Assembly: GCA_002708825.1 (NCBI GenBank)
Contig: PAPF01000003.1
Coordinates: 1-64,000, forward strand
Direction: 5' to 3'
DNA: 64,000 nucleotides
Origin: Phyllobacteriaceae bacterium
Lineage (GTDB): Bacteria > Pseudomonadota > Alphaproteobacteria > Rhizobiales > Rhizobiaceae
A program made the translations under genes and the position numbers. How positions within the stretch are numbered: the stretch's first letter is position 1; each line of letters opens with the position of its first letter. The notes below the pieces were generated by a model. That model worked only from the letters and a program-made list of their open reading frames with translations, ran no database searches and was not told the DNA's origin. This document shows, piece after piece, positions 22,723 to 41,877 of the stretch.

Positions 22723-23300
22723 AGCTTGCTCAGCAGATGGAAGAGCAGTGCGCCGCCTGAGGCACTGAACGGCAGGTAACCCAGCTCGTCGAGGATCACG
22801 AGGTCGAGGCGCACGAGGGTCTCGGCAAGCTGGCCTGCCTTTCCCTTCGTCTTTTCCTGCTCAAGGGCGTTGACCAATTCGATGGTCGAGAAGAACCGCA
22901 CCTTGCGGCGGTGATGCTCAATGGCCTGGATGCCAAGCGCGGTCGCAACATGGGTCTTTCCGGTGCCGGGCCCACCGATGAGCACGATGTTCTGCGCCCC
23001 CTCCATGAACTCGCATCGATGGAGCTGGCGCACCGTGGCTTCATTCATCTCGCTGCTTGAGAAGTCGAAACCCGACAGATCTTTGTAGGCCGGAAAGCGT
23101 GCCGCTTTCATATGATAGGCAATCGACCGGACCTCTCGTTCGGCCATCTCCGCCTTCAACAGCTGGGTTAGGACCGGGACTGCCGCTTCGAATGCAGGCG
23201 CGCCTTGCTCAATCAAATCGGTCACGGCCTGCGCCATGCCATGCATCTTGAGGCTGCGAAGCATGATAATGATGGCGCCGCTGGCGGGATCATGACGCAT
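22721..23300 (-). pseudogene. istB: istB, C-terminally truncated
   Basis: The helper ATPase starts at 23300 (MRHDPASG) and has a normal Walker A (IGGPGTGKTHVATAL) and Walker B ([12 protein letters not shown]). Homology ends at LLSKLY, after which the frame reads antisense umuC sequence. The C-terminal sensor region present in the first element's IstB is absent, so this copy should not support transposition. The frame stays open to 22533 only because of the fusion. It overlaps istA by 11 bp. Confidence 0.85.
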
Positions 23301-24822
23301 GGCGGCCTCCGGTGTTATGGGCCCGCAGATCGTCGTAGCGCCCGACATTTGCCTTAGGCTCGCGGCGCAGCGCAAGCGCTTGGGGCGTATCGATGAGCGG
23401 CCCATCGTTGGTTTTGCCATCAATCAGGCGATGGAGGATATTCAGCACATGTGTCTTGGTGGCGACCCCTTCGGCCAAAGCCAGTTCCACAGCGGTCAGA
23501 ACAGCTTGCTCGTCATGGTGCAGGACCAATGCAAGGATATCGACCATCTCACGGTCTCCACCAGGACGTCGCAGCATCTGTTCCTGCAGTTGCTTGAATC
23601 CTGACGGCAGTTCGGCAAACGGAGCGCCATTCCTAAGCGCGCCAGGTTTGCGCTGGATGACCGCCAAATAATGCCGCCAGTCGTAGACCGTTCGCGGCGG
23701 TAGTTGGTGGGAGCGGTCAATACGCCGTGCATGCTCGCATAAGATCTGGCCCTCTGCGGCGATGACGAGCCGGTCAGGATAAACGCGGAGGCTGACAGGG
23801 CGGTTCGCGAACGACGCCGGCACGCTGTAGCGAGTGCGCTCGAAGCTGATCAGACAGGTGGGAGAGACGCGCTTGCTCCATTCGATGAAGCCATCGAAGG
23901 CCGGCGGCACCGGCATCAACGCGGTCTGTTCCTCAGCCCAGGCATCGGCAACAGTCCCAGCCAGACGGCCATGCGGGATCTCCTGCCAGAGCGCCTTGCA
24001 GCGCTGTTCCAGCCAATCATTCAGCGCCGCGAGATCGGGAAAGTCCGGCATCGGCTGCCAAAGCCGCGGTCGTGCATCTTGGACGTTCTTCTCGACCTGA
24101 CCCTTCTCCCAACCTGCGGCCGGATTGCAGAATTCCGGCTCGAAGACATAATGGTTGGCCATGGCGAGGAAACGCATGTTGACCTGACGCTCCTTGCCGC
24201 GCCCGATCCGATCCACCGCTGTCTTCATGTTATCGTAGATGCCACGTTCCGGCACACCGCCCAGAACGCGGAAGCCGTGCCAGTGGGCATCGAACAGCAT
24301 CTCGTGGGTCTGAAGCAGATATGCCCGCACGAGGAACGCCCGGCTGTGAGACAGCTTGATATGCGCAACCTGCAACTTTGTGCGCTCACCGCCAAGAACC
24401 GCGTAATCTTCGCTCCAGTCGAACTGGAAGGCTTCACCCGCTCGGAAGGTTAGTGGCACGAAACTGCCGCGCCCCGTCGTTTGTTGTTCACGCTGGCGGT
24501 CTGCCCGCCACGCACGGGCGAAGGCCGCAACTCTGCCATAAGAACCGGTGAAGCCAAGAGCCACGAGATCAGCGTGAAGCCGTGTCAGCGGACGGCGCTG
24601 CTTACGTGATTTGGACGCCTCGGTCTTCAGCCATGCCGCAAGCTTGTCCGCAAAAGGATCAAGCTTGCTCGGACGCTCCGGAACCGAGAACTTCGGCTCG
24701 ACCGTGCCAGAGTTCAGATACTTCTTGATAGTGTTGCGCGACAAACCTGTGCGACGTGCGATCTCACGGATCGGCAGTTTCTGTCGCAGGGCCATCCGCC
24801 GGATGACATTCAAAAGTCCCAT
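23290..24822 (-). CDS. istA: IS21-family transposase IstA, second element
   Basis: A 510-residue DDE transposase. ATG at 24822, with GAGGAG just upstream, gives MGLLNVIRRMALRQKLPIRE, the expected N-terminal helix-turn-helix region (LPIREIARRTGLSRNTIKKY). Core motifs are [28 protein letters not shown] and [12 protein letters not shown] longer frame upstream would run into the end repeats. It differs clearly from the IstA at 3190-4755, so the two elements are separate arrivals and not copies of one. Confidence 0.93.
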   Translation of the reverse strand: MGLLNVIRRMALRQKLPIREIARRTGLSRNTIKKYLNSGTVEPKFSVPERPSKLDPFADKLAAWLKTEASKSRKQRRPLTRLHADLVALGFTGSYGRVAAFARAWRADRQREQQTTGRGSFVPLTFRAGEAFQFDWSEDYAVLGGERTKLQVAHIKLSHSRAFLVRAYLLQTHEMLFDAHWHGFRVLGGVPERGIYDNMKTAVDRIGRGKERQVNMRFLAMANHYVFEPEFCNPAAGWEKGQVEKNVQDARPRLWQPMPDFPDLAALNDWLEQRCKALWQEIPHGRLAGTVADAWAEEQTALMPVPPAFDGFIEWSKRVSPTCLISFERTRYSVPASFANRPVSLRVYPDRLVIAAEGQILCEHARRIDRSHQLPPRTVYDWRHYLAVIQRKPGALRNGAPFAELPSGFKQLQEQMLRRPGGDREMVDILALVLHHDEQAVLTAVELALAEGVATKTHVLNILHRLIDGKTNDGPLIDTPQALALRREPKANVGRYDDLRAHNTGGRHAS

Positions 24823-24929
24823 GTGGATCACTCCTCGGTCCCCCGTCGCTCGCTGCGTTGGGAGAAGGGTCACATGGGTCAATTCTCAATGAAAATTATC
24901 CCGTCTACCGGGTCACGTCTCGGCGGAAA

Positions 24930-26036
24930 TCAACAGACGCCCTGCTCAACGTCGGTGGGCTTCTCCCCACGCACATAGGTTACAAACTCGGCGATCACAC
25001 TGACCGGATCGTCCAGTTTCGAATGTGCACGTCCCGAAGCCGTGATCACTAGATCCTGTTTTTTCTCGCGAAGGGTCTGAAGAATGTTTGGATAGAAGGG
25101 CCGCAGCTGCGCGGCGGGTTCCACAAGTGCACCCTCGTCTAAAAGAACGGCGCAGATCAGATCCTCGCTAGGGTTAGCTTGTGCTTCGGCAACGAGATCG
25201 GCCAGCAATCCCCGCACCTCACGGACACGGCGCAAAGGCTTGAACGCAATCTGTTCGAGATTGGCCAAGCTTCCGTCGGCCGTGAGGTCGAAGACGATCA
25301 TGGACTTTGATGTGTTCGCTTCGTCAAAGCCGAAAGCCAAAGGCGATCCGCTGTAGCGAATACCGTCTCTTCCAGCGGCTTGTGGGCGATGAAGGTGCCC
25401 CAATGCGACATAGTCGGCGCCATCGAAGATCGCCTGTGACACCATTTCGACGGTCCCGACAGCCAGGCGACGCTCACTGTCACTCGGTTGGCAATCGGCG
25501 ACGAAGGCATGGGCGACTATGACCCAGCGGGCGCCTTCCGGTTTATGGCGCCGCGCCGCTTCGATCTGGTTTCGGAGCACATCTTCCGGCGTCCGGATGG
25601 TCTCGTCCTCGAAGTCGCGCCGAGCTGCATAGATCTCGCCATAGGGTAGAGCCGAAAACGCCACAGCTCCATGCTCATCCTCAAGCACGAGCGGCGTCTC
25701 GTCCTTCGAGAGCGGACCTCTGATGAGGATACGCCCTTTGTCGAAGAGCTTGGTGACCGCGCCCAGGCGCTGGCCTGAATCATGATTACCGGCGATCACG
25801 ATGATCGCTGTCTCTGTCTCTTCGTAAACGCGTTCAATGAAATCGCTGTAGAGCTTAACAGCCGGTTCCGGCGGCGACGCCTTGTCATAGACATCACCGG
25901 CCACGATGAGAACGTCGATGTTCGATGCAACAATCACCTCTAAGATCTGATTCAGAACATGGGCTTGGTCCTCGAGCAGCGACACCCCGCGTAGCGAGCG
26001 TCCCAGATGCCAATCTGCTGTATGAAGGATCTTCAT
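24930..26036 (-). CDS. sbcD: SbcD-like exonuclease subunit, 3' end cut by IS21
   Basis: A metallophosphoesterase of about 368 residues with the five Mre11/SbcD metal motifs: HTADWHLGRS, VAGDVYD, IAGNHDS, VIVAHAF and ALGHLHRPQ. SbcD pairs with the SMC-like ATPase SbcC to cut DNA hairpins and blocked ends. The last codon and stop lie inside the IS21 end (24935), so the native C-terminus is missing. No sbcC follows; the expected position is occupied by the IS21 element. Upstream it is divergent from a WYL regulator with a shared 71-bp promoter region. Confidence 0.87.
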   Translation of the reverse strand: MKILHTADWHLGRSLRGVSLLEDQAHVLNQILEVIVASNIDVLIVAGDVYDKASPPEPAVKLYSDFIERVYEETETAIIVIAGNHDSGQRLGAVTKLFDKGRILIRGPLSKDETPLVLEDEHGAVAFSALPYGEIYAARRDFEDETIRTPEDVLRNQIEAARRHKPEGARWVIVAHAFVADCQPSDSERRLAVGTVEMVSQAIFDGADYVALGHLHRPQAAGRDGIRYSGSPLAFGFDEANTSKSMIVFDLTADGSLANLEQIAFKPLRRVREVRGLLADLVAEAQANPSEDLICAVLLDEGALVEPAAQLRPFYPNILQTLREKKQDLVITASGRAHSKLDDPVSVIAEFVTYVRGEKPTDVEQGVC

Positions 26037-26107: not shown

Positions 26108-26926
26108 ATGGCCTTTAACGACCTGAAACACGCGCAACGCGCCCGCCTGGAGCATCTCGACCGACTCTTCTTTTGGGACGGTGCGGCAACCCGTACTTCG
26201 TTGATCAAGCAGTTTGGTATTTCGAACGCGCAGGCTGCACTCGACTTTCGCGCTTATCTCGCCGAGGCAAAAAAAGATGCGCTCCGCTATGATGCCTCAT
26301 CCCGCCAATACCTCGCGCAGGAAGGCTTTCAGCGGCTGAGCGGGGAGGCCACATCTGCGGAACTGACGCAACTGCTGACCACCGATTTTGCCGCGGCGTT
26401 TGACAGACTGCCAGACCTTCAGCGGGTTCAGGATATGCGCGTGCTGCGCCCGCTCTATCGGGCGTTCAAGGCCAAGGAGGCGGTGAAAATAGTCTACCAA
26501 TCGATGCGTGATCCAGAGCCGATTACGCGCTGGATCGCTCCAGTTCGCTTCGCTTCGGATGGCGTTCGACTGCACGTCCGTGCCTGGTGTTATACCCGAC
26601 AGGCCTTTCGGGATTTCCACCCGGCGCGCATAGACCCCGAACGATCGTTTGAGGAGACAAGGCCTGCCGAAGCCGTACCAACTGACGAGGACTGGTTCAC
26701 CTGGGCTATATTGAAGCTCAAGCCCCATTCTCGACTGACTGATGCCCAACAGCGTGTTGTGCGGATCGAGTTCGGGTTCACCGCCGACGTGCTCGAAGTC
26801 CGAACCAGGAAAGCGCTTGAGTTTTACACCGAGTGCCGATGGGGGCTCGAACAAAAGGAGCCCAGGCTCGAGCGCGTTTCCACGGAATATGTCGTCATGG
26901 GTGCGGAGGAAACTGATGCAATTTGA
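26108..26926 (+). CDS. WYL-domain regulator, BrxR/CapW-like
   Basis: A 272-residue regulator with an N-terminal winged helix (RLEHLDRLFFWDGAATRTSL, about residues 13-60), a WYL domain at about 120-190 (AVKIVYQSMRDPEPITRWIA, RAWCYTRQAFRDFHPARI) and a C-terminal WCX-type extension (VRIEFGFTADVLEVRTRKAL). This layout matches BrxR/CapW repressors, which guard phage-defence loci and may sense nucleic acid through WYL. It is divergent from sbcD, overlaps the next gene by 11 bp, and faces the minus-strand defence block. Its targets are inferred from position. Confidence 0.87.
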   Translation: MAFNDLKHAQRARLEHLDRLFFWDGAATRTSLIKQFGISNAQAALDFRAYLAEAKKDALRYDASSRQYLAQEGFQRLSGEATSAELTQLLTTDFAAAFDRLPDLQRVQDMRVLRPLYRAFKAKEAVKIVYQSMRDPEPITRWIAPVRFASDGVRLHVRAWCYTRQAFRDFHPARIDPERSFEETRPAEAVPTDEDWFTWAILKLKPHSRLTDAQQRVVRIEFGFTADVLEVRTRKALEFYTECRWGLEQKEPRLERVSTEYVVMGAEETDAI

Positions 26927-27161
26927 CATGCGTCGCGTCGACCCGTCACGCAATATGAACCGCTTCTATTCCGTAGAGTTGACCAAAGACCTTTTCGGTG
27001 CTCATGGCGTACATCGTCAGTGGGGACGGTTCGGCACATGGGGACGACATCGGTTTGACTGGTACAAATCGCTACCCGAGGCCGAGCGCGCTCTATCCGA
27101 TTTGGTCAAACAAAAACTGGCGCGCGGTTATCTGCTTAAGCCACCGGTCCCTGATGCATAA
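26916..27161 (+). CDS. Small WGR-domain protein
   Basis: An 81-residue protein that is essentially one WGR domain: NMNRFYSVELTKDLFGAHGV, then RQWGRFGTWG and a helix ending VKQKLARGYL. WGR domains bind DNA ends or nucleic acid in PARPs and in many bacterial proteins. The start ATG at 26916 lies inside the end of the WYL gene with GGAGG upstream, so the two should be translated together. Its 3' end overlaps the convergent DUF6527 gene by 34 bp. A stand-alone WGR protein with a WYL regulator suggests a DNA-end adaptor for this locus. Confidence 0.83.
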   Translation: MQFDMRRVDPSRNMNRFYSVELTKDLFGAHGVHRQWGRFGTWGRHRFDWYKSLPEAERALSDLVKQKLARGYLLKPPVPDA

Positions 27162-27562
27162 AGGTCAGCATCGGCTGAGTTTTCGAGTTCGTGGCCGCTG
27201 CCATTGGCCGGTAACTTTGGTCGTCCGCCCTTGCACCACTGAACCTGACCCTGTTTGATCCAGAAATGACACCCGCACGCGTTTTGCTGATGCACTGACG
27301 GCTTGACTGTTGGTCGCATCCAAAAGTCTTCCGAGATCGTCCAGCGTGGTCGCCGGTTGGGGTTCAAGGATAGGTTTATGACCTCTCCGCAGCCGCCCGG
27401 GCATCTGAGGCAAGCCCATTTCCTGATGCCACCACTTTCCACGAGCGTGACGCGTTGGTCCGCAACCTGTGATCCGTCCGGAAAGGACGGGCTACGGTCG
27501 ATCAACAGGTCATAACGCAGCAAACGGAGACGGCGGAGAAGCTTCAAAATCTGGCGTTTCAT
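27128..27562 (-). CDS. DUF6527-family zinc-binding protein
   Basis: A 144-residue protein with a basic N-terminal helix and Cys/His pairs: CLRCPGGC (Cys51, Cys54, Cys58), NACGCHFWIKQGQVQWC (Cys96, Cys98, His99, Cys110). The pattern, including INLSLNPN and HFWIKxGxVxWC, identifies DUF6527, a predicted metal-binding partner found with bacterial multi-ubiquitin/E1/E2 operons. Its ATG lies one base after the E1 stop, so it is the last gene of that operon. Its biochemical role is unknown; it might recognise targets or act as an accessory ligase-like factor. Confidence 0.82.
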   Translation of the reverse strand: MKRQILKLLRRLRLLRYDLLIDRSPSFPDGSQVADQRVTLVESGGIRKWACLRCPGGCGEVINLSLNPNRRPRWTISEDFWMRPTVKPSVHQQNACGCHFWIKQGQVQWCKGGRPKLPANGSGHELENSADADLYASGTGGLSR

Positions 27563-27563
27563 G

Positions 27564-28955
27564 TCAGCTCACCATGTCCAAAAATGGCCGTACATCCGCG
27601 CGACCGAGCGTCTCTGCCTGGCTGCAACACGGGCAGCTGGATCGTGACTCGACCAAAGGCCTGCGTTCGTCTCGTGCATGGAAGCGCCGGATGCGTGTAG
27701 GCAACATCCCCGCTTCACCGGCAAGTCCGGTCACGCCCGCCAGCCACTCATTCACCGCCATGGTCGCCGCCTCGGTCGTGAAAGTAACAACTGCCGGAGA
27801 TGGGTCGCCTTCTCCCAGGACATATGCTTCCTCTTTCAGACGCTGATAGGCGTCAGGATCATTCCGTCTAAGCGCCTCTTCACGCGCGCGGCGCGGATCG
27901 ACATAATCGCCGCAGAGCAGACAAGGATGGCCAGGCACGAGCGTTGAAACTCGGGCGAAGAGATCGAATGCGGTGCCCGTCCGCCGCTGCATGGCAAGCC
28001 CCACGTCTATCACGGGGATACCGTAGAACCGGGCAAAACGGTTCAGAAACAGTCGGCCGGCATGATCGTCCGTGCAGCAGAAGATCACATCGCAGGCTTT
28101 GAGCGCATCCCACGTTTCCGGATGTCCGGCCCAGGCATTTATTGTCACCAACGTCATTCCGAGGCCGGATTCCAATACAGTCCGTGTGTGTATGGAGGTC
28201 TTCGGCATCTTCGCATCGACATCTGAGCGCCGCGCACCATGGAGGCGGTTGAGATTGGTCTCGTCCACGATGTCCTTGTCGAACTGAACGGCTTCGGCGA
28301 CGCCAAGCCTCAACAAGAGGGACAGGAGCGCGCTCCCGGTTGCACCCCCGCCAGCAATTCCACACCGAAAGCCCGACACCTGCCGCGACGCCTCCTTCCC
28401 GAACAGGCGAACCTGGCGGTCCAAGAAATCCTCCGGAGTCCCTTCGAGACCCGAAATGCGCAAGCGGGGTCCGGAATGCAGGACCCTGCCAATGTCGATT
28501 GCTGTGTCGGCCTGTGTCCAGATGCGTGCGGCGATGTCACCATTCCCGGCTATGACAATGCTGATCAGCCCGGGCATCCCTTTCAAAAGAGCGGTGCGGG
28601 CAAGTTCGGCTTCGTTGCGATCGTCCTGTTCGGAAAATCTGGCATTGCCTTTCGGATGACTATGGACAAGTGCCGGTACGTGACCAGCGACTTTTGCGTC
28701 ATTCAACAGCCGCATGAAGCCATCCGTCTGCCAAGTGACATGCCGCCCGGAGGCCGAGACAAGAGCGTCGTCATCGATCTGGTCGAACTGATGCGAAATC
28801 AAACGCCGGCGCGATGCCTTGGTCCACGGGTCGGATTCGATATCGGCGATGCCAAAGAGCATGTAGGCTGATCGCTCTGATCCGGCCCCTTGCGTCAGCA
28901 GAGACCGGATTTGCGCCTCGTGCGGGTCCAGAAGGACGAGATCCTGTGTCTTCAT
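27564..28955 (-). CDS. JAMM peptidase-E1 (ThiF) fusion
   Basis: A 463-residue fusion. The N-terminal half is a JAB/MPN protease with an intact JAMM zinc site: His98, His100, Ser108 and Asp111 in HSHPKGNARFSEQD. The C-terminal half is an E1-like ThiF adenylation domain with the nucleotide loop GIAGGGATG (199-207), Asp/Arg positions in DETNLNRL, and zinc pairs Cys345/Cys348 and Cys441/Cys444. It should activate the ubiquitin-like protein and also cut or recycle conjugates. ATG at 28955 is chosen because its first base is the last base of the E2 stop (TGATG). A longer frame upstream is a shadow of the E2 gene. Confidence 0.87.
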   Translation of the reverse strand: MKTQDLVLLDPHEAQIRSLLTQGAGSERSAYMLFGIADIESDPWTKASRRRLISHQFDQIDDDALVSASGRHVTWQTDGFMRLLNDAKVAGHVPALVHSHPKGNARFSEQDDRNEAELARTALLKGMPGLISIVIAGNGDIAARIWTQADTAIDIGRVLHSGPRLRISGLEGTPEDFLDRQVRLFGKEASRQVSGFRCGIAGGGATGSALLSLLLRLGVAEAVQFDKDIVDETNLNRLHGARRSDVDAKMPKTSIHTRTVLESGLGMTLVTINAWAGHPETWDALKACDVIFCCTDDHAGRLFLNRFARFYGIPVIDVGLAMQRRTGTAFDLFARVSTLVPGHPCLLCGDYVDPRRAREEALRRNDPDAYQRLKEEAYVLGEGDPSPAVVTFTTEAATMAVNEWLAGVTGLAGEAGMLPTRIRRFHARDERRPLVESRSSCPCCSQAETLGRADVRPFLDMVS

Positions 28956-29809
28956 CACGCCCGGGCCTCCATCAAAGCGGTCCGCACGCGGGCGACCATG
29001 GTCTGAAGACCATCGACGCCGGGGCGCCAGGCATTGTTGTGCCGCGACCAGCGCTGCCAGACACGGCCGGCAAAATGATGCTCCTTCTTGCATGCCTTCG
29101 GCACCTGTCCGGTCCCGGCCAGCGTGAGCTTCGGCGACACATAGAACATGTCGGGCGAACAGTCGGGATAGCCACGGGGCAGCAAGATCAGAACGTCGGC
29201 TGTCTCATGGTCGAATTTGCCCTCCGGCAGCGCCAAGGCTGTCAGGATGATGCCCGTGGCGCCGCCTTCCATCACGACTTCGAACTCGTAGCCGTGATCG
29301 GAAAGGTAGGTCTGATCTTTCGACGGAAGGGCGTCCCCCTCCGTCGTCTGATCAATAAGCGACACGAAGCGTTCCACCCCGACGTCGGCCAGGTTGATCA
29401 CATCTGTATCGGTGATCTTCTTGTCGTGCTGACCGGGGATCTCCTGCCAGAGATTGTAGTTCGCCGGCAGCTTGGCCAGCTTGCGCAGCACAAAGCCACT
29501 GATGCAGGCCCGCGGCCATTCAAGATCGGCGTCGTCGATCTTGAACTTGAAGCTCCGATCCGAACAAGCAACCAGTACCCTCTCGGCACCGCGACCGTTC
29601 AGATCAAAGCTTTCGTCAAGGCGGATGTCTTCAAAGTCCCCATTGGGCAGAATGGCAATTGCCACATGCTCGTCGACGGGATGCCCGCCAGCGGCCTCGA
29701 TCAACTGCCGCCCCAGAACCTTGGGATCGTCGAAGACGTGCTTTTTGAAGTTGAGGCTCTCATCGCCGATGAGAACCGGGAAGCGAGGAGTGTTTCCTTG
29801 CGGCTTCAT
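28955..29809 (-). CDS. Multi-ubiquitin-E2 fusion protein
   Basis: A 284-residue protein with two ubiquitin-like repeats (about residues 10-80 and 85-152; the second includes FKFKIDDADLEWP and the GVERFVSL end) followed directly by a prokaryotic E2/UBC domain of the E2_E type (about 165-284; LPRGYPDCSPDMFYVSP and GRVWQRWSRH). No Gly-Gly tail separates the parts. Candidate active cysteines are Cys217 and Cys240. Start ATG at 29809 has AAGGAAA upstream. Usually the multi-ubiquitin and E2 parts are separate genes, so the fusion suggests conjugation in cis or a modular carrier. Confidence 0.83.
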   Translation of the reverse strand: MKPQGNTPRFPVLIGDESLNFKKHVFDDPKVLGRQLIEAAGGHPVDEHVAIAILPNGDFEDIRLDESFDLNGRGAERVLVACSDRSFKFKIDDADLEWPRACISGFVLRKLAKLPANYNLWQEIPGQHDKKITDTDVINLADVGVERFVSLIDQTTEGDALPSKDQTYLSDHGYEFEVVMEGGATGIILTALALPEGKFDHETADVLILLPRGYPDCSPDMFYVSPKLTLAGTGQVPKACKKEHHFAGRVWQRWSRHNNAWRPGVDGLQTMVARVRTALMEARA

Positions 29810-29878
29810 ATTTGATTTCCTTGTGTTGTATGAGGCCGCAGACACCATGTCTGCGCCTTCACAAGGACAATCGCGGCG

Positions 29879-32800
29879 TCAGGAGGAATCCGGTAAGCCG
29901 ATTCCGATTTTTTTTCTGAGCGTGCCGGAGGGTGGGGCGGTGCAGATGAAAAAGTGGGGGCAGCGCGCGCATCGGTCGCTACGTTTTGGCGGAAACCGGC
30001 CCTCAAGAATAGCGAATGCAGCGTCAGCGATTGTGGCTTTCTTGTTCCCGAGCTGCCCACTCTTCATTGCCAACCGGTCTTGCGATCTGCCTGTCAAATA
30101 GACGAATTCCGCTTCACCTCGGCCCTCGGCAGCAATCTGAAAAGCGGCCGCATCAAGCGCGGTTACCGCAGTGCTTGTCTTGCGGCCTGTGCGGATGCGC
30201 CGGAACACTGTGGCGTGTTCCGTTTCGATTTCTTCATGAGCTGTCACGACGACTTCAGCGTCGCCAAACCGGAGCGAAAGGGATTGCGGCGTGCGCCGGG
30301 TTTCACCCTCCCTCAGCTGAAAGAAGAATTGCAGCAATTGGTCGGAGATCTGCCGGTATTCCGAGGCATAGCCATGCTCAATCGGTCCATGGGCCGTCCA
30401 TGCGGCATCCATGATCGCCTGCAGTTCGGCTTCGTCCGGCACGTCGTTCAGACGGCCTGTAAGCTCATCAATGACGACCTGGATAGCATTGTGCATCCGC
30501 ATGGGAGCTGACTCCGTTCGCCGACCGCCAACCTGCAGCACGTGAGCAAAGAAAAATCTCCGGGGGCACTTTTCGTATGTGGCAAGCTGGGACGGCGACA
30601 CGCGGGCAATGCCATCGACTTCCAACGTGAAGCGCTCACCTGTGACCGAAACGTTGATTGGTGTCGATATTGGTGATGCCTCGAACAGCGTACCGGAAAT
30701 GTCGTCGATGAAACTCGATCGGCTCTGCCGGCGTCCATTCGATTGTTTGTTCGGCGCATAGAGTGTCAGGTGCTCTTCCGCCCGGGACAATGCCACGAAG
30801 AACAGGCAACGCTGTTCTTCGTCATGTCCAGCCTTCATAGCTTCACTGCCGCGAAATGGGGCGCCCTCGATCATCCCGTCCGGTGGAGCAAGGCCACGGC
30901 TCTGATTGGCCGAGCGAGGAAGCGAGCCACTCGTCAAAGCGGGCAGGTGGAGAGCTTTGAACTCGAGGCCCTTGCTCCCATGGATCGTCATCAGTCGAAC
31001 GGCGTCCAGGCCCTGGGCGGCGTTAGGGAGATCACGCAAATCCCGCTCGTCGGACAGGATGACCAGCCGCCGAATGTGCTCCAGAAGGTCGCGGATGGGA
31101 TAACCGCTTTTTTCGGGCAGGGCGGAGCGGAGGAAGTTCTGGAACTGCCAAAGGGCAAGCGCAGGGTTGGCGTTGCCCTCGCGAGCCTGCGTGGCAATAT
31201 CGGCAGCAAGGCGCGTTCGATCCAGGTAAATTTTCGTTATGATCTGCCACGGCGTAGCCGTAGGCTCGATCCCGGCGAACGCATCGACAAGCGCTTTGGC
31301 AGAGACCTGCCCGCCTTCCGTCAACCCCGAGATTGCTGTCAGTATGTCTCGCCAATCTAGTGGAAGAGGTTTGTCGGCGCCTCGGATCTCCTCGATTGCG
31401 AGCGAAACGTCCTCGATAGCCATCTGAAACGCCGCCATCGAGGCGACGCACGTCAGTCCCATTGCTCGCGGATCGATCACGAGCGACAAGAGCGACAAGG
31501 CCTCTTTGATCTCCGGACGGTCGAACAAAGGTCCAAGAAACAGAACCGGTATGCCCCGTGCCTCCAGACCCGAAGCGATCTCTGCCAACCGCGCATTGCC
31601 CTTGCAGATGACCGCCTGATCCCGAAACGGGATCCTGTCCGTACAGGCGGTTATGCGTGCGGCGATCTCATCGATTTCGTGATCTTTCGATTCAACTGAG
31701 ACGAAGGAAGGGGCCACACCGTTTGTGCCTTTGAAGGCGTTCGCTTCGAAATCGGTGGCATTCATACGCGTTCTCGCGAACTCGCGGAACGCATCGCAGA
31801 TTTCCTGCGATGACCGGTAGTTTGTACTGAGTTGCAGCGATGTCCCGCCCTGAAAGTCGTCAGTCTCGAACCGGTCGATGTTGTAAGAGGAAGCTCCACG
31901 GAAACGGTAAATCGACTGCTTCGCATCGCCGACGACCCAGAGGTTTTCGCCTTCCGGTTTGAGCGCGCGCAGGAGCCGCACGCTTGCTCGGTTCACATCT
32001 TGGTACTCGTCCACCAGGATGTGTTGGTACCGACTTTGAAGTTGCGCACGCACGGCGTCATCGGATTCGACCAACGCCGTTGGACGAGCCACGAGATCCC
32101 CGAAATCAACGGCGCATCGATCAGACTTGAGCTGCTCATAGAGGTCGTAGACCGAAGCGATCTCGAGACATTTCTCGGCGGCGATCCGCTCTTCTTCCGA
32201 CTCCGCAACATCCGCCATTTGCTGGGCAAGTGCCCGGTATTGGTGATGGTCCACAACCTCGTCTTTTGCGCGTGAGATGGCTGAGAGAATGGACCGCAGA
32301 TTGTCGGTCGGGTCATAAAGATCGTTGAAATGCGTCAGCCGCAGTCGCGGAAACTCGTCCTCCAGCAGTGCAATAGCTTCGGTGGCATCGATTAACCTCG
32401 GATCGGGCGGCAAATCCGCACGATCGTGAAACCGGCGCAGCAGATCGAGCCCGAAGGAATGAAAGGTACCAATCCAGGCTGAACCGGCCGCTTCCGGCCA
32501 GGCCGCCATGGCGCGATCCGTCAGTTCGCCGGCCGCCTTGTTCGAAAAGGTCAAGAGCAAGATGCTTTCCGGATCGACACCGCGATCCTTCAGAACAGAC
32601 AATCTGCCGACGAGGGTTTGCGTCTTGCCAGTGCCGGGTCCGGCTTTTAGGAGCAACGCCTTGCCGTCGTGCTCGGCTGCTCGCTTCTGCTCGTCATTTA
32701 GAGGCTTTGGGGCCGGTGCAGCCTCCTCATTCGATTCAGTCTGCGGCAACAGGAGTGCATCGAACAGCTGGACCGCCACCATGTCGTAGGGCGCTCCGAG

Positions 32801-33289
32801 ACGCTCGGCTATAGCCTTTGTGCTTAGGGCCCCGTCGATGTGCCAGGACCAGGCCAATGCTCGCGGAAAAAGGAACTCACGCGCAAAGAGGTCCATCTGA
32901 ACTTCTTGCCGGGCGCGATTGCTGTAATCGACGACTCGATCGGCGCCCACGGATGATGGGTCTGCCGAACGCGCCGGATCGATGCCCATGACCGGCGGAA
33001 CGTCAACCAAGCCGCCGAATTCATCATGTCCGAGTTCATGGGCGACCAGAAACGCATCAAGGAAGGCGCTTCCGGTATCTTCGTGCAGGATTACACCGGC
33101 GTGTCTCTGGAACAGCGCCCGACCACCGTTCAGCTGCGGATGCCCGGCAGGAAGTTTCCTGACCTCAATATCGCGATCCCTGGCTTCGTGAAGGGCAAAT
33201 TCATACGGGTTTGTCGGATCGCCGCCCTTGCCCGTGCGCTCCGCGTGAAGATCCGCTGCGCGGGTCCGTGTCGCTTCAATCCGATCCAT
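29879..33289 (-). CDS. ImmA/IrrE peptidase-UvrD helicase-Fe-S nuclease-like fusion
   Basis: An 1136-residue three-part protein. Residues about 1-180 are an ImmA/IrrE zinc peptidase with HELGH at 84-88 and a downstream Glu near 129 ([16 protein letters not shown]). Residues about 195-870 are a UvrD/Rep SF1A helicase: Walker A AGPGTGKT (216-223), [28 protein letters not shown], and [11 protein letters not shown]. The C-terminus has the Fe-S cysteine layout of AddB/Cas4-like nucleases (Cys908, Cys1107, Cys1110, Cys1116), but the expected D/ExK acid-lysine set reads [10 protein letters not shown], so catalysis is doubtful. ATG at 33289 overlaps the upstream XRE-like gene by 14 bp. Confidence 0.87.
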
Positions 33290-33824
33290 CGCCTGCAAGC
33301 AACTTCTGCAAAGCGCGTTGCTCCTCCTCGGCAAGCCCGGCCTGGCCGACATAGTCCCAGAACTCGATGGGCGCTTCCTTGCTTGGCTTTGAATCGGATT
33401 TCATCGCGACGGCTTGGCCGTCGCCCTGCTGCATTCCTCTGATCAGGTCCTGCAACCGCACATCCAGGCTTGCCGCGAGGCCTTTCAGGAATTCTGAGGG
33501 CATCGAGCCGAGGTGAACAATATTGGCGTTCAATCCCATGAAGAACGCGCGAGGGAGGCCCATCTCGCGAGCGAGTTCTTTGACCCCGTTGCCAAACAAA
33601 GATTGTCGAACGTGTTGAACCCTCAAAGCCTCCGCCGTCATCGCCTTTGTCTCAAGCGGTAGGTTGGCCTCAGTCGCCTCGAGGTCGCTCAGCGAAAGCT
33701 CGTTAAAGAGCGCCAGTAAGTCCTTGGTGTACTCGGGATAGCGCTGCAGGTAGTCCTTGAGGACCGCGGGCGACATTTCTTCCTCAATCGTGAAATCGCT
33801 TAGGACGTCGTCTCTATTCGCCAT
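33276..33824 (-). CDS. XRE-like protein, possible ImmA substrate
   Basis: A 182-residue protein. The first 70 residues are acidic and helical ([20 protein letters not shown]). Residues about 75-140 resemble a shortened Cro/C1 helix-turn-helix: [18 protein letters not shown] and [20 protein letters not shown]. ImmA/IrrE peptidases typically cut a neighbouring XRE repressor, and this gene overlaps the ImmA-helicase gene by 14 bp and the sigma-like gene by 11 bp. It may therefore be the protease-sensitive repressor, or an anti-sigma-like partner. That role is inference; the HTH assignment itself is only moderate. Confidence 0.62.
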
Positions 33825-34617
33825 CGTCGATCTCCAAATCCAGTGCTCGCCTTATTCTCGCATAGGCACGATCCCGCCGGTTGCGAACTGTCTTTTCCAC
33901 GCAACCCAGAAGTTCCGTCATCGACGGTTCGCCATCCTTGCTGGTTTCAATCGGAATGTCTGCGAGCAACAAATCAATCACCTCTCGTTCGTCTGTCGGT
34001 AAGACGTCAATCGCGCGGCGCAGGTGAATCCGGTAATCGAAATCTTCTTCAGCCGTAAGTCCGGTCTTCTTGTAGCGATCCAACGCCGCCTCCACGACAG
34101 TGCGGATCTCCCCGGTGATGGCGTCCTCTACCTCTTCAGTAGCGTTTTCTCGGCGGTTCACTTTGCGAAGTTTGGTGATCCGCGCCGAACGCACTGCCTT
34201 GTCGAATACAACCTCATAAATATCGAGTTGCTCGTCGTAGCCTTGCCGGTCGATGAACATCAGTTCAGTGACATGGTTGATCGTCGCGTCGCGAATCTCG
34301 GCAATACGGCTGTCTTCGTAGACCGTGTCGTCTACATGGCGGTTCGGGCGTGGACAGGCCGCCTCCACCCGATCGCGAAGGATATCGTAGAGTGCAACAA
34401 ACCGACCGTCCGAATTGTCGGACTTGGTCTGACGCAAGTGATACACAATCACCTCTGACGGCACATAGTCGCTGTGCCTGCGATCTTTTATTTCGGCCTG
34501 CCTCAAAAACTCGTCGAAGGGCCAATCGAGGCTCTTCTCGATGAAGTGAGTTACAGGCGGCCGGCGCGTATATAGTTCGCCGCTTTCTTTCCGTTTTCGA
34601 AGTGGGTTGATATGCAT
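33814..34617 (-). CDS. Sigma-factor-like protein with region-4 HTH
   Basis: A 267-residue protein whose C-terminus (about 205-262) matches sigma-70 region 4: LRRAIDVLPTDEREVIDLLL followed by SMTELLGCVEKTVRNRRDRA, where the second helix would contact DNA. The N-terminal 150 residues (FVALYDILRDRVEAA and following) could correspond to region 2 but are weak. It lies 18 bp after AbiEii and overlaps the XRE-like gene. Sigma-like, XRE-like and ImmA genes in a row suggest a regulated switch that could reprogram transcription of the locus. Confidence 0.62.
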   Translation of the reverse strand: MHINPLRKRKESGELYTRRPPVTHFIEKSLDWPFDEFLRQAEIKDRRHSDYVPSEVIVYHLRQTKSDNSDGRFVALYDILRDRVEAACPRPNRHVDDTVYEDSRIAEIRDATINHVTELMFIDRQGYDEQLDIYEVVFDKAVRSARITKLRKVNRRENATEEVEDAITGEIRTVVEAALDRYKKTGLTAEEDFDYRIHLRRAIDVLPTDEREVIDLLLADIPIETSKDGEPSMTELLGCVEKTVRNRRDRAYARIRRALDLEIDDGE

Positions 34618-34635
34618 GTTGCGCCGAATCTCAAG

Positions 34636-35745
34636 TCAGGTCGGTTGCTTGCTTTGTGTCTCATTTATGAATATTTCAAGCGCTTCAATACTGTCCATGA
34701 CTTCTTCGAATTTTGGCGGGATCCCGAATATCATGGCGGACATCCGCTCATAGTCAGTCTCCAGCTTCTTGCTCATCTCCGCGGTTGGCATCAGGCGGTA
34801 CGAGCCCGGTTCTGCCCGATCGTACCGATGGTCAGGCGCACGGAACATGAGCTGCTTGTGCTGTCGGCATGCTTCGGCCAGATCGCCCATCGAGGCTACA
34901 TTCTCGCCGTACTCTGCATGCCGCCAAATCTGGTGGACATCGTAGTAGTGCCGCGAATAGCGATTGAGATCAGGGACCGGACGGCCGGGATCACTATCTG
35001 CGGCGCGTTTTTCCGTCATTTCCGTCATGGCGTGCAGGATCAGCACCTTTTCCCAAAAGGTGCGTTCCGGCTTGACCGTCGTCACCCCACCGAATTTGAT
35101 GGCGGCGCCATTTGGAAGTTCGTCTGCCACGTAGGGAACGATCTCACGCGCTTCGACGGGAACGGGGTCGGGCCGGGCGCCACCCTCAATCCGTACTGCA
35201 GCCTGGACATAGCCGTCTCCGGATCCGAATGCGCTGTCATAGCCGACCACCAGAACATCGAGTGCATCCCTGTTCCGATAAGGATCGAAGCCAAACTCTA
35301 CGGAGAAATGGCCACTCCTGCCTGACAGTTCTTCGACGGTCGCGATCTCTTTCAGTAGCTGGTCACGAAGCGTGCCGGATATGTATTTGCGCGCCGCTTC
35401 GTCGACCTCCTCGGCGAGGGCCTTTTGCTGTTTGGTGATCGATGGCAGTGCGGCGATATCGGCCTCAAGCGGGGCATTGAGGTCGGCTTTGAATATTCCG
35501 ATATCGATGTCTTCTGAGAACCGTCTTATAAGACCATACGCCTTGCTCAGGCTGGTTCCGCCCTTGAAATAGAGGTGGACCGGGTCGTTCTTGCGCCGGT
35601 TGAACAGGAAATCGAGAACCCAGCAGACATAAAGGTCCTTCTCGACATTTTCGGCGCGCGTTTCCAGTTTGGCCGCGACCGCCGAATAGAGGGCTTGGCG
35701 TTCATCGGTACTCGATTTGAGGATTTCAGCGAATGCCTTCTGCAT
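34636..35745 (-). CDS. abiEii: AbiEii-type nucleotidyltransferase toxin, second module
   Basis: A 369-residue AbiEii toxin with YFKGGTSLSKAYGLIRRFSE continuing to DIDIGI, the nucleotidyltransferase loop and acidic pair. Further family segments are PERTFWEKVLILHAM and YSRHYYDVHQIW. ATG at 35745 is chosen because it overlaps the antitoxin stop by 20 bp, while the longer frame would begin deep inside the antitoxin gene. It is only distantly similar to the AbiEii at 6845-7882, so the two modules were acquired separately. Confidence 0.9.
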   Translation of the reverse strand: MQKAFAEILKSSTDERQALYSAVAAKLETRAENVEKDLYVCWVLDFLFNRRKNDPVHLYFKGGTSLSKAYGLIRRFSEDIDIGIFKADLNAPLEADIAALPSITKQQKALAEEVDEAARKYISGTLRDQLLKEIATVEELSGRSGHFSVEFGFDPYRNRDALDVLVVGYDSAFGSGDGYVQAAVRIEGGARPDPVPVEAREIVPYVADELPNGAAIKFGGVTTVKPERTFWEKVLILHAMTEMTEKRAADSDPGRPVPDLNRYSRHYYDVHQIWRHAEYGENVASMGDLAEACRQHKQLMFRAPDHRYDRAEPGSYRLMPTAEMSKKLETDYERMSAMIFGIPPKFEEVMDSIEALEIFINETQSKQPT

Positions 35746-36469
35746 GTGCCCCCGTCGTATCAGATAGCTGCGATGCGTCGTCCGAGCCTTCATCAGTCGG
35801 CAGTGTTCGCGTAATCTTCTCGATTACCGGATACATCCAGGCAGGAACGGCTTGGATGTTCTGGTGCAGGTCTTCGACAATTGCGTCACGCTCCCGCGCG
35901 CTAGCGAGGCGTCGGACAATCCCGTTAACGGCGGCATCCAGGCTTGCTCGATCATCGCGAAACCATGACAGGGCCTGAACGACGCGCATGGCCGGCCGGC
36001 CGGCCCAGAATGCCGTCTTGGCGGAGATCCGTTTGAAGTCGAGTTTGTAGACGACCGGCTCTTTCGCGTTTGGGTCGCCCGTGTTGGCAATAATCTCGAT
36101 CGTCCTTGGATAGGTGTCGGCGTAAATCGTGCTTCGGGCCGGGACTGCCGTTGTCAGTCCAAGGTCATTGGCCGCGGTCATTCCGTCAACGAGCACTCGC
36201 AGCTTGTCGCGCCGCGCGATTGCATCGACAAATGATGCGATGGGAGGGAACACCATTTTGCCGGTCAGTTTGCTTGTAGTCGGTTTATCATAGAGGCCAC
36301 GGCACGGGCGCCGGATGTCGCCACGCTTGGCAAGCCTCTGCAGGGCCTTCTCGACCCCGTTTGGGCTGGCGATGTCCAGGAAATCGGCGCGCGACCAGAC
36401 CCCGCCGGGGGCGCCTGCGGTGATACGTGCATAAACCCGATTGAGTGTATCGGACGTCGGATCTGGCAT
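35726..36469 (-). CDS. abiEi: AbiEi-type antitoxin, second module
   Basis: A 247-residue antitoxin of the DUF6088/AbiEi group. The N-terminal winged helix is VWSRADFLDIASPNGVEKAL continuing RLAKRGDIRRPCRGLY; the antitoxin domain follows, with a charged C-terminal tail after residue 220 that the first AbiEi lacks. It is the first gene of an eight-gene minus-strand block. Two copies of a TTTGGTC-type dyad lie directly upstream, which fits negative autoregulation by cooperative binding, as shown for AbiEi proteins. Confidence 0.88.
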   Translation of the reverse strand: MPDPTSDTLNRVYARITAGAPGGVWSRADFLDIASPNGVEKALQRLAKRGDIRRPCRGLYDKPTTSKLTGKMVFPPIASFVDAIARRDKLRVLVDGMTAANDLGLTTAVPARSTIYADTYPRTIEIIANTGDPNAKEPVVYKLDFKRISAKTAFWAGRPAMRVVQALSWFRDDRASLDAAVNGIVRRLASARERDAIVEDLHQNIQAVPAWMYPVIEKITRTLPTDEGSDDASQLSDTTGAHAEGIR

Positions 36470-36485: not shown

Positions 36486-36567
36486 TGACCAAAGATTATA
36501 TACGAATTTTGGTCAGTAGCAATGCCGAGCGCGAAAGGCGACCAAAGTTTTTATACAAATTTTGGTC
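36486..36567. promoter_or_regulatory. Tandem operators upstream of the second abiEi
   Basis: GACCAAA-N14-TTTGGTC occurs twice, at 36487-36514 and 36540-36567. Both 14-bp spacers are AT-rich and contain TATA(T)AC-like sequence that could be -10 elements on the minus strand. The copies are 53 bp apart, about five helical turns. The first ends 17 bp before the antitoxin start. Confidence 0.75.
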
Positions 36568-37634: not shown

Positions 37635-38711
37635 TTAGTACCTTCTGTGGGCACGCACGATTGCCCCAACCGCCTTGCCGGAAGCTCCTTCAATTCCGAC
37701 AAGGACCTGCACGCGCGGCTTCTGCAGTTCCTTGACAGCCAAGCCAATCGGCTGAAGTTCGTCCATTGCCACCCATCTGTCACCGATAGGAACGCTCTCG
37801 ATTAAGTCGTTCACCGTATGATCGGCTAGTGCAACAAGGCCTTCCAATTCCTTTGCACGTGCCCCGATAAAGAGCGCTACGTCGACGGATGTGAAGGCGG
37901 CCGTTGGCCTTCCGTCCTGGTCCACGCAAATAATCGCCGGGTGTTTCTCTACAATTTTATCGGTCAGCTCGTTGAGCTTGGTATCCACGGAAACTGCAAC
38001 AAAATTCTTGTCGAGTTTCGTTGAGAGGCTGTTTGCGATTATGCCGTCACGCCGCGGACGGGTCCTGACGATGGTGCCAACAGTCGAATAATGCCTCATC
38101 CACTTGGCTGTATCCACGCAACGAAGCTCGGTCAGGCGAATAATCTTGGAGTAGGTATCATTGATGTTCATGTCGAGAACCGGTTCATGATGAGCGACCC
38201 GGTTTCGAAAGGCGTTGATCGGCCTCACAAGGTTCTGGATATCTTGCCTGCTCTCTCCATGTTGTAGGTGTGGGAAAGCTCGGTTCACCTTCGTGCGCCA
38301 AAGAGATCCGTATTCTGATCGGAAGAGGTTCGACCAAAAATCAAAGGTAAGCGTTGCGATCACCTGACCGCGCGGAGCGTTCTGACCGGCCCGCTGGATC
38401 GCCTTGTCGAGAGTTGCCAACCCTTCGGCAGTCAGCGTTTGGTTCCGGAACGCTGCATCTTGATGCCAGTCTTGCTGAAAGGTAGACACTAGGATCTCGT
38501 CAACTGCATTGCGCAACGTAACTTCTGCCACGTTGAGCGGGAAGAGGAACGCCTTCGCAAGCCGCGCGTTGTAGAGATAGAGGGCCAGCGCATACTCCTC
38601 GTGGTTGCCGCCTTTTGAAAGGTAAGTGGCAAATCGAGGTTCAGAGATTGATGCCCGGATCGCCTGCAGGTCTTGCGGCGTGTATGGATAAGGAACTTGA
38701 CTTTCGGCCAT
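37635..38711 (-). CDS. Abi_2/HEPN-like protein fused to CBS-like domains
   Basis: A 358-residue protein. The first 220 residues match Abi-family (AbiD/F, Abi_2) proteins: LYLYNARLAKAFLFPLNVAE, FWSNLFRSEYGSLWRTKVN, and the HEPN RNase motif RNRVAHHE (169-176). The last 130 residues read as a CBS pair (FVAVSVDTKLNELTDKIVEK, IICVDQDGRPTAAFTSVDVA, then a second copy ending GKAVGAIVRAHRRY). CBS domains bind adenosine nucleotides, so the RNase could be nucleotide-gated. ATG at 38711 (MAESQVPYPY) is preferred. It lies alone between the AbiE block and the SOS locus. Confidence 0.75.
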   Translation of the reverse strand: MAESQVPYPYTPQDLQAIRASISEPRFATYLSKGGNHEEYALALYLYNARLAKAFLFPLNVAEVTLRNAVDEILVSTFQQDWHQDAAFRNQTLTAEGLATLDKAIQRAGQNAPRGQVIATLTFDFWSNLFRSEYGSLWRTKVNRAFPHLQHGESRQDIQNLVRPINAFRNRVAHHEPVLDMNINDTYSKIIRLTELRCVDTAKWMRHYSTVGTIVRTRPRRDGIIANSLSTKLDKNFVAVSVDTKLNELTDKIVEKHPAIICVDQDGRPTAAFTSVDVALFIGARAKELEGLVALADHTVNDLIESVPIGDRWVAMDELQPIGLAVKELQKPRVQVLVGIEGASGKAVGAIVRAHRRY

Positions 38712-39003
38712 AAAACGACGATAACCCACCAAAGCAGTCGAACAGGCCCCACTGGCTCGCCATGCGCCTTCGACATAGAATTTATGTACACCAGGTCAGG
38801 CCAGTCCTCACCTGGTGTTTCATTTTTATAGCCTAGTATCATACAGATCTGCACTAAACGAGCTTCAGCGGATATCAATCGCAGAGAACAGGTTCGGTAG
38901 AACCTTTCTAATCCGCGCACGGCGGCGCTCCGATTGCGGGGTTGCTCTTCTGGTCGTACAGCTCCCGGGCCTGGTCAGATTTCAATCTGCCTTGCGATGT
39001 ACC

Positions 39004-41760: not shown

Positions 41761-41877
41761 CCCGTCCCACCTCAAACCCCTGGGAATCAACGATGCGCGT
41801 CCCACGCATCGGCGTTTTCTGCCGGTCGAGGTGGCCTGAGCCCATCAAAGAGTCCGATTGACTCAAAACCGGAAAGA

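Follow-up and report, generated by a model that had tools for sequence, protein, structure and literature searches.

A six-gene ubiquitin-like conjugation cassette with a probable dedicated sigma/XRE/helicase-protease controller in a Phyllobacteriaceae bacterium

Introduction

The closest described relative of the conjugation genes studied here is the type 6e polyUbl operon (Iyer 2006, PMC1779556), in which, as far as the available text of that paper goes, tandem ubiquitin-like (Ubl) domains are fused to an E2/RWD-like domain lacking a conserved cysteine, JAB is fused to E1, and a metal-binding zinc-finger-like protein completes the set; the spread of these operons is patchy and often on mobile elements. 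The same gene set (tandem Ubl, RWD/E2-like domain, JAB-E1 and a zinc-finger-like protein, here DUF6527) was found in a Phyllobacteriaceae bacterium, within a stretch of 64,000 nt of contig PAPF01000003.1 (GCA_002708825.1), hereafter the window, where genes were judged by open reading frames (ORFs), Pfam and PADLOC. In the window, the conjugation genes follow a trio encoding a sigma-like protein, an XRE-like protein and an M78 peptidase-UvrD helicase fusion, and are preceded by a promoter-like element and a predicted structured leader RNA. In contrast, controller genes, element and leader do not appear in the available text of the type 6e description (PMC1779556), where the words “UvrD” and “helicase” occur zero times.

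The conjugation cassette looks to be of a known kind, and the controller looks new. Type 6e operons are presumably among those now called Bub. In the available part of the 2026 CapK/CapS paper (PMC13373217), Bub operons stand under DNA-damage controllers (219 of 544 have CapW or CapH+CapP, and 59 CapK+CapS), and the word “helicase” is absent from its main text. CapK+CapS and CapW/BrxR lie, as the trio does, upstream of Bub and other immune operons (PMC13373217, same part), and are kinase/STAS or WYL proteins with neither sigma factor nor helicase. In CapH+CapP, as in PprI/IrrE-DdrO, a helix-turn-helix (HTH) protein beside an M78 peptidase heads an immune or polyUbl operon, and cleavage is activated by single-stranded DNA (ssDNA) in the known cases: PprI responds to ssDNA by cutting DdrO, and CapP has CapH as its substrate, both enzymes being M78 peptidases (PMC10904395 and PMC13373217, available parts). 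In the window, too, an M78 peptidase with an intact HExxH motif adjoins a putative HTH protein, and the two lead an immune-type operon; what sets this pair apart is the fusion of the peptidase to a UvrD helicase and an apparently dead nuclease fold, an additional N-terminal domain on the HTH protein and the presence of a probable sigma factor.

Two further systems bear comparison. Gabija shares the UvrD-type helicase core (GajB), whereas the window helicase has additional M78 and dead PDDEXK domains, and no OLD-type nuclease of the GajA kind was found by Pfam or PADLOC among the eight proteins of the block described below. AbiE, a type IV toxin-antitoxin system, consists of an adjacent AbiEi/AbiEii pair with an inverted-repeat operator, through which AbiEi autoregulation is known in other bacteria (PMC7319586, available part); the pair beside the cassette has the same layout and differs in its DUF6088-type AbiEi and in being placed before the cassette as an optional unit. 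No description of trio, element or leader was found in openly licensed papers, supplements excluded; part of this picture may stand in tables of the key Bub papers.

Results

The genes for the sigma-like, XRE-like, M78-UvrD, polyUbl-E2, JAB-E1 and DUF6527 proteins are one conserved six-gene cassette. The sigma-like family alignment was scanned against genome contigs, the best 80 of 108 relatives were kept (27 sigma clusters at 70% identity), and our own hidden Markov models (HMMs) were run on all ORFs of these loci; loci and genomes are cited below by L and G numbers. An XRE-like gene followed the sigma gene in 77 of the 78 loci with 700 bp downstream, the sole exception (L080) being probably a gene-calling artefact with the HMM match in a longer ORF, and an M78-UvrD gene followed in all 73 loci with 1.5 kb downstream. 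A conjugation gene was present in 68, and DUF6527 in 66, of the 70 sigma-anchored loci with 7 kb downstream; as regards trio plus conjugation genes, this bears out the unit put forward in the original prediction. The relatives belonged mostly to Alphaproteobacteria, with others in Gammaproteobacteria, Burkholderiales, Acidobacteria and Planctomycetes; the cassette was also seen on a cyanobacterial plasmid. The spread was patchy: the sigma-like gene was found in 6 of 249 genomes of the window's order (the window's own included) and in 76 of 72,556 plasmid records. A phage origin of the sigma-like protein was rejected (no match in 50,697 phage records at E 1e-3); two partial matches were seen in IMG/VR contigs. 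At L084:5004-9819, matches to polyUbl, E2, JAB-E1 and a DUF6527-like protein lay directly upstream of a trio with a cassette whose E1 has another N-terminal domain, placing two conjugation sets next to each other.

In the window the six genes lie on the minus strand behind two AbiE genes, and all eight ORFs were recovered where the original prediction had placed them, with the predicted domain identities supported by Pfam and PADLOC (the XRE-like and sigma-like calls fell below Pfam cut-offs). The cassette comprises the sigma-like protein P0006 (33814..34617, sigma4 plus a probable sigma2-like part; Pfam E 0.024 and a structure model), the XRE-like protein P0005 (33276..33824; Pfam E 0.012 and a structure model), a fusion of M78 (ImmA/IrrE-type), UvrD and a PD-(D/E)XK-fold iron-sulphur (Fe-S) domain (29879..33289, longest ORF start 33352; Pfam M78, UvrD and PDDEXK_1), a polyUbl protein with two Ubl domains and Prok-E2_E (28955..29809, longest ORF to 29848; Multi_ubiq 1.4e-26, Prok-E2_E 3.9e-46), a Prok-JAB and ThiF (JAB-E1) protein (27564..28955, longest ORF to 29093; Pfam, start by comparison) and a DUF6527 zinc-finger-like protein (27128..27562; PF20137, E 5.1e-24). 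Relatives favoured the shorter genes (helicase start 33289, Ubl-E2 start 29809, E1 start 28955); a start matching 29809 was annotated in the relative L002, and a ribosome-binding-site-like AAGGA precedes it. The seven junctions of the eight genes consisted of four overlaps, where five had been predicted, and of the predicted gaps of 1 bp, 18 bp and, as the longest, 69 bp with the Ubl-E2 start at 29809 (30 bp with 29848).

The JAB and E1 motifs of the conjugation proteins were complete: the JAMM motif H-x-H...S-x-x-D, the E1 motif G-x-G-x-T-G-S and four cysteines were each present in 26 of 26 sequences, and C54, C58, C96 and H99 of DUF6527 in at least 95% of 71 relatives. The E2 domain had an invariant WQRWSRH and no invariant cysteine (C230 and C253 in 16 of 25 each), a pattern that agrees with the inactive RWD-like reading in the available text of Iyer 2006 (PMC1779556). 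PolyUbl proteins lacking the E2 domain (L039, L004, L005 and others) ended mostly in FNVTRTxxS, the last residue being serine in 43 of 44 and not glycine, and their E1 lacked a JAB domain.

In the helicase-protease, H105, E106, G108, H109 and E150 of the M78 domain, as well as the helicase Walker A and D448-E449-x-Q451-D452, were found in 74 of 74 sequences. Four cysteines of the PD-(D/E)XK domain were kept in 73-74 of 74; we take them to resemble the Fe-S site of Cas4/AddB nucleases. An aspartate at position 1052, read as the D of D-x-K (aligned by eye), was present in 0 of 74, and an active nuclease in the fusion was rejected on this ground. The fusion keeps protease, motor and cluster but no cutter, as might be expected of a sensor.

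The XRE-like protein consists of an N-terminal helical domain, an HTH (residues ~69-133), a loop and C-terminal helices; its structure model (predicted local distance difference test, pLDDT, 83) aligned weakly to XRE folds at the HTH in VIA-align. A near-invariant K142 and an invariant P147 lie beside a low-confidence loop (138-142), and the K142...P147 stretch is our guess for a candidate cleavage region. The XRE-like protein is proposed to be the M78 substrate and either a repressor or a partner of the sigma-like protein.

The sigma-like protein P0006 is a probable diverged sigma factor, the sigma4 part being well supported and the sigma2 part less certain. Its family profile matched FliA region 4 (E 0.0015), and most rows shown by VIA-align for its AlphaFold2 (AF2) model (pLDDT 85) were sigma factors, the comparison being more telling than that of the XRE-like model. 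The sigma4 part resembled the -35-binding fold of SigL (3hug_K; Z 9.7, root-mean-square deviation (rmsd) 2.0 A over 68 residues) and other sigma4 rows. Rows that included the sigma2-like part reached Z 8-10 with rmsd 8-23, and region 2 gave no match at the sequence level. Three rows, the top one among them, were integrative models with polymerase subunits (RPSD, RPSH, RPSB), not identifiable as sigma factors.

The trio looks like the controller of the conjugation genes, judging from what occupies its place elsewhere. When 385 genomes of the class were screened for Multi_ubiq, 12 matched (11 over the cut-off), and the trio was present in three (the window, L121 and L126). In eight others (L122-L125, L128-L131) an M78 peptidase gene detected by HMM was divergent from the conjugation genes and adjoined by an HTH gene (by HMM in L122, L123, L128 and L131; by eye in L124, L125, L129 and L130), L123 and L131 being close to the CapH/CapP-like pair of pSYSX; the remaining one (L127) carried an Xre/RES-like pair, by eye. 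Six trio-less plasmid polyUbl loci also showed other controllers at the trio's place, going by annotated names: HTH and ImmA on pSYSX; a sigma-70 gene, a gene for a small acidic protein and ImmA, divergent from the polyUbl operon, on a Pseudosulfitobacter plasmid (L099:4959-6747); two small genes and ImmA in Paracoccus; four genes ending in HTH and ImmA in Agrobacterium and Methylomagnum; and, in Citrobacter (L098), an ATP-binding and DNA-binding pair before the polyUbl operon which by eye resembles CapK/CapS. No convincing sequence link was found between the XRE-like and sigma-like families and the HTH, small and sigma proteins of these six loci. The L099 arrangement follows the same logic as the trio, with no detectable sequence relation to it.

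On a Robbsia andropogonis plasmid, an M78-UvrD gene and two smaller genes are divergent from polyUbl/ThiF/DUF6527; the XRE-like gene was confirmed by HMM (3e-28), and the gene at the sigma position was not recognisable by HMM or Pfam. Among seven distant M78-UvrD plasmid loci picked across the spread of matches (L132-L138), XRE-like and sigma-like HMM matches stood in front in six and five, respectively; in L134 an IS256-type transposase separates the sigma match from the remaining genes.

Cassettes of at least four kinds stand behind the trio: polyUbl-E2, JAB-E1 and DUF6527, as in the window; polyUbl, an E1 with another N-terminal domain, and DUF6527; a Ubl-sized protein, DUF7665, JAB and E1 (L006, L132-L135, L137), with Ubl/E2 roles assigned from place and size and with JAB and ThiF matches below cut-off; and a Ubl/E2-like fusion, JAB and E1 (L049, by eye). 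In L064 the trio is followed by SbcD/SbcC-like genes only. On the helicase tree (FastTree, midpoint root, 11 helicases dropped beforehand to thin near-identical loci), cassette type required 13 Fitch changes, compared with 30.8 for shuffled labels; because L084 was mislabelled and L075 and L136 were entered as “unknown”, about ten changes are claimed instead of 13.

An alternative for the helicase fusion is that it acts mainly as an effector on phage DNA (Gabija-like or RecB/AddA-like), the conjugation genes modifying or regulating it and the sigma and XRE proteins being ordinary local regulators. The UvrD motifs intact in all 74 sequences, the match of the PADLOC GajB models to the window's helicase core and SbcD-like exonuclease genes somewhere in the fetched stretch of 14 of 80 loci speak for such a role. 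It is nonetheless unlikely: the nuclease aspartate was lost in all 74 sequences while the M78 site was invariant in the same 74, M78 peptidases hold the corresponding position in operons that lack the trio, and a trio divergent from its conjugation genes also occurs.

A two-box promoter-like element, TTACCGG-N16-CGATT, precedes the polyUbl gene (29869..29896, minus strand), and a second copy is found within the sigma gene (34009..34036, minus strand), ~185 bp ahead of the XRE gene. In a survey of 84 regions (the window, 70 of the 80 loci and 13 others), the element stood before the conjugation genes in 65 by the strict pattern, in 70 with a relaxed first box and in 22 of 25 sigma clusters, with a spacer of 16 in 69 of the 70 matches. 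Of the 14 regions missed, L069 and L080 do have the element in front of polyUbl, and L015, L038, L067, L074, L091, L004 and L005 differ by about one base (by eye). The 1.45 Mb of the 80 loci held 131 strict matches: 65 in sigma genes, 60 in the gap and six elsewhere, two of the six also directly before polyUbl; all those in sigma genes and gaps were oriented with transcription. Further copies outside the two usual places were seen at L061:17293, L073:17343 and L068:9753 (minus strand), with no ORF of at least 80 aa starting within 400 bases behind them.

Codon usage in the sigma gene was constrained at the element. The exact element was present in 65 of the 72 sigma genes analysed (eight were outside the count because the search string missed them), and the codons TAC (72 of 72), CGG (69), GCG (72) and ATT (69) at the element, counts that are inflated by kinship among the loci, were used for 49%, 21%, 34% and 32%, respectively, elsewhere in those genes. 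The window's genome (4,696,839 bases) contained the element twice, both at the cassette, and the reversed pattern not at all. In the window alone, two matches with at most one mismatch arise in 1 of 100 shuffles, so that the weight of the element rests on the whole genome and the comparison. Of seven other genomes that carry a sigma-like or trio locus, two (G084 and G512) had two matches each, both at the locus. Four trio-less genomes had 1, 0, 1 and 0 matches, and none of 15 trio-less polyUbl loci carried the element.

Such a pattern would be expected if a dedicated sigma factor served a local regulon, and co-distribution suggests that the sigma-like protein uses the element. Another possibility is that the XRE-like protein, or some other regulator, has its operator in the element at a housekeeping promoter, with the sigma-like protein a DNA-binding accessory and not a working sigma factor. 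Sequence support limited to region 4, and a sigma2-like part that aligns only with a large overall rmsd, leave this some room; it is quite improbable given two boxes that are unlike each other and not palindromic, the nearly constant spacer, the uniform orientation of strict matches and the predominance of sigma factors among the VIA-align rows. In addition, in L135 and L136 a changed box pair (TTCCGAT-N15-CGACT) stands before the sigma-position gene and again before the conjugation genes, and goes with a sigma-position gene that is unrecognisable or weakly recognisable. Because the conserved element precedes the Ubl gene, a separate transcript start before 29809 is predicted from sequence, which runs counter to a single transcript from the AbiEi operator.

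Downstream of the element, the RNA is predicted to form a structured 5' leader (29807..29868, minus strand) in which an outer stem holds the ribosome-binding site around an inner hairpin (-25.2 kcal/mol, z -4.6). With the two leaders that exceed 70 nt left out of the 56 distinct ones, 46 of the remaining 54 had z<-2 (median -3.1), compared with 1 of 106 control windows and 2 of 13 leaders from trio-less loci (simpler shuffle), and the ribosome-binding core was paired in 49. The outer-plus-inner form was found in 23 of 25 groups (one fold per group, loose script rule; the groups include the window, L002 and L014, themselves close kin). Because the stems failed to align when 24 of the 56 distinct leaders were put through MAFFT, covariation was counted on 13 window-like leaders only: 10 cells had changed on both sides, compared with 2.9 in shuffles, and sliding the partner strand lowered pairing from 89.5% to 50.2% or less; since the rows are related, this is support and not proof. 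No Rfam family was found at the leader; the sole Rfam row in the region was sR28 (E 0.031, below the gathering score) at 30022-30071.

Upstream of the cassette lie AbiEi, the DUF6088 antitoxin (35726..36469, minus strand; PADLOC AbiEi 6.4e-86, DUF6088 3.4e-21), and AbiEii, a nucleotidyltransferase-type toxin (34636..35793, minus strand; PADLOC AbiEii 4.8e-94, Pfam 2.1e-32). AbiE genes were found within 3 kb upstream of the sigma gene in 29 of 72 loci (21 on the same strand, 8 divergent) and 5 of 25 clusters, and were not found there in 43 loci and 20 clusters. One largely rhizobial cluster included 17 loci with a 4-bp overlap between the AbiEii stop and the longest sigma ORF (a gap of 18 bp in the window), and the near relative L014 had a 78-aa AbiEii remnant with the six cassette genes intact. 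Before AbiEi, the palindrome GACCAAA-N14-TTTGGTC occurs at 36487-36514 and 36540-36567, forming an operator of two 28-bp palindromes (36487..36567) 53 bp apart in register, with two matches in the window and none in 100 shuffles; the window's AbiEi probably binds it. A TTGCTA-16-TATAAT promoter-like site (36522-36495) overlaps the first palindrome, although the region held no clear excess of such sites as a class (6, compared with 3.3 +/- 1.5 in shuffles). Eight divergent loci (L017, L020-L026) shared TGTCAGA-N14-TCTGACA 107-119 bp before sigma; L032, whose AbiE is likewise divergent, lacked it. In L068 (17248-19370) an AbiEi/AbiEii-like pair seems, by eye, to be placed downstream of the conjugation genes, another arrangement of AbiE with the cassette.

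AbiE is thus read as a recurrent, self-regulated companion outside the core: the recurrent neighbourhood and the operator at the head of the block, both proposed originally, were found, whereas core membership and a sole control point were not upheld, given the loci with no AbiE found within 3 kb upstream and the conserved elements at 29896-29869 and 34036-34009. That all eight genes are one system under the AbiEi operator is very improbable despite the co-directional genes, the short AbiEii-sigma distances and the strong operator, because in most loci no AbiE was seen in the 3 kb upstream, and also in view of its divergent orientation in eight loci, its remnant in L014 and the Ubl gene's own conserved element.

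Several neighbouring genes were also noted. Just downstream of the cassette, an SbcD-like exonuclease gene (24930-26036, minus strand) is divergent from a WYL-domain regulator gene (26108-26926, plus strand), and SbcD-like and WYL matches were also seen near the trio in Roseovarius pelagicus (L132), L014 and L026. The place directly behind SbcD, at which SbcC would be the expected partner, is occupied by a Mu-type transposase ORF (23290-24882, minus strand), which we take to be IS21-like. An Abi_2 family gene (37635-38732, minus strand) and a second UvrD helicase gene with no M78 match (39691-41805, minus strand) lie close to the cassette, perhaps in a defence island.

Discussion

Taken with somewhat better than even confidence, the locus is a six-gene Ubl conjugation cassette with a dedicated sigma/XRE/helicase-protease controller, AbiE being optional with its own operator, and it would work as follows. 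Before cleavage, the XRE-like protein would hold the circuit off, as a repressor or as an anti-sigma factor. DNA ends or single strands arising from phage or damage would engage the helicase part, and the M78 domain, thereby activated, would cut the XRE-like protein, by analogy with PprI/DdrO and CapP/CapH. The freed sigma factor would then direct RNA polymerase to TTACCGG-N16-CGATT, both inside the sigma gene (for the XRE and helicase genes) and before polyUbl-E2/JAB-E1/DUF6527, a use suggested by co-distribution. The predicted leader hairpin with its ribosome-binding site may add a translational gate, and the conjugation enzymes would finally attach Ubl to targets, or release it, as a putative defence or stress response.

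Several findings weigh against this reading. A conjugation gene was found in neither L064 nor L078, and the sample was uneven (the best 80 of 108 relatives, with 31 of the 72 loci having upstream sequence in one cluster). G149 had one element match elsewhere besides two at the locus; G224 had four, of which one lay in its sigma gene, another, on a different contig, was identical to the gap element of the window, and the other two lay elsewhere; and G130, G166 and G313, which have a sigma or trio locus, had no exact match. The consensus element is missing from L134-L138, whose controllers are diverged, and only two of these loci showed the variant. Further pair types in the leaders were not in excess (12 compared with 12.5 in shuffles). 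The lack of an invariant cysteine makes ordinary E2 chemistry doubtful. Similarity of M78 to CapP is confined to the active-site region, and neither the M78 domain nor the XRE alignment yielded a usable match in searches of PDB sequences. The HTH of the XRE-like protein matched CapH (7t5u) and DdrO (6rnz) weakly, with Z 3.8 each; no sequence link between the XRE-like protein and CapH was found, the family profile giving E 0.12 with the pSYSX CapH-like protein in a set of 17 sequences. Foldseek returned no match at E<=0.001 for the XRE-like or sigma-like models, and according to the VIA notes helical folds can reach Z 13-14 without kinship.

A wider proposal is put forward only tentatively, as a whole: the locus may represent a new class of bacterial damage switch, in which DNA ends are read by a translocating UvrD helicase, joined to a dead nuclease fold with an Fe-S site, and the built-in M78 peptidase is fired in response; an HTH/anti-sigma partner is destroyed and the sigma factor released, the whole regulon is the switch's own cassette, with one promoter within the sigma gene and another ahead of the Ubl genes, a leader hairpin also gates translation, and the portable module has been re-paired many times with different Ubl cassettes.

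Bacterial Ubl operons are likely kin of eukaryotic ubiquitin signalling, and their activation is only partly known. The present comparison separates the optional AbiE unit from the core, and the leader RNA and promoter-like element offer simple handles for experiments.

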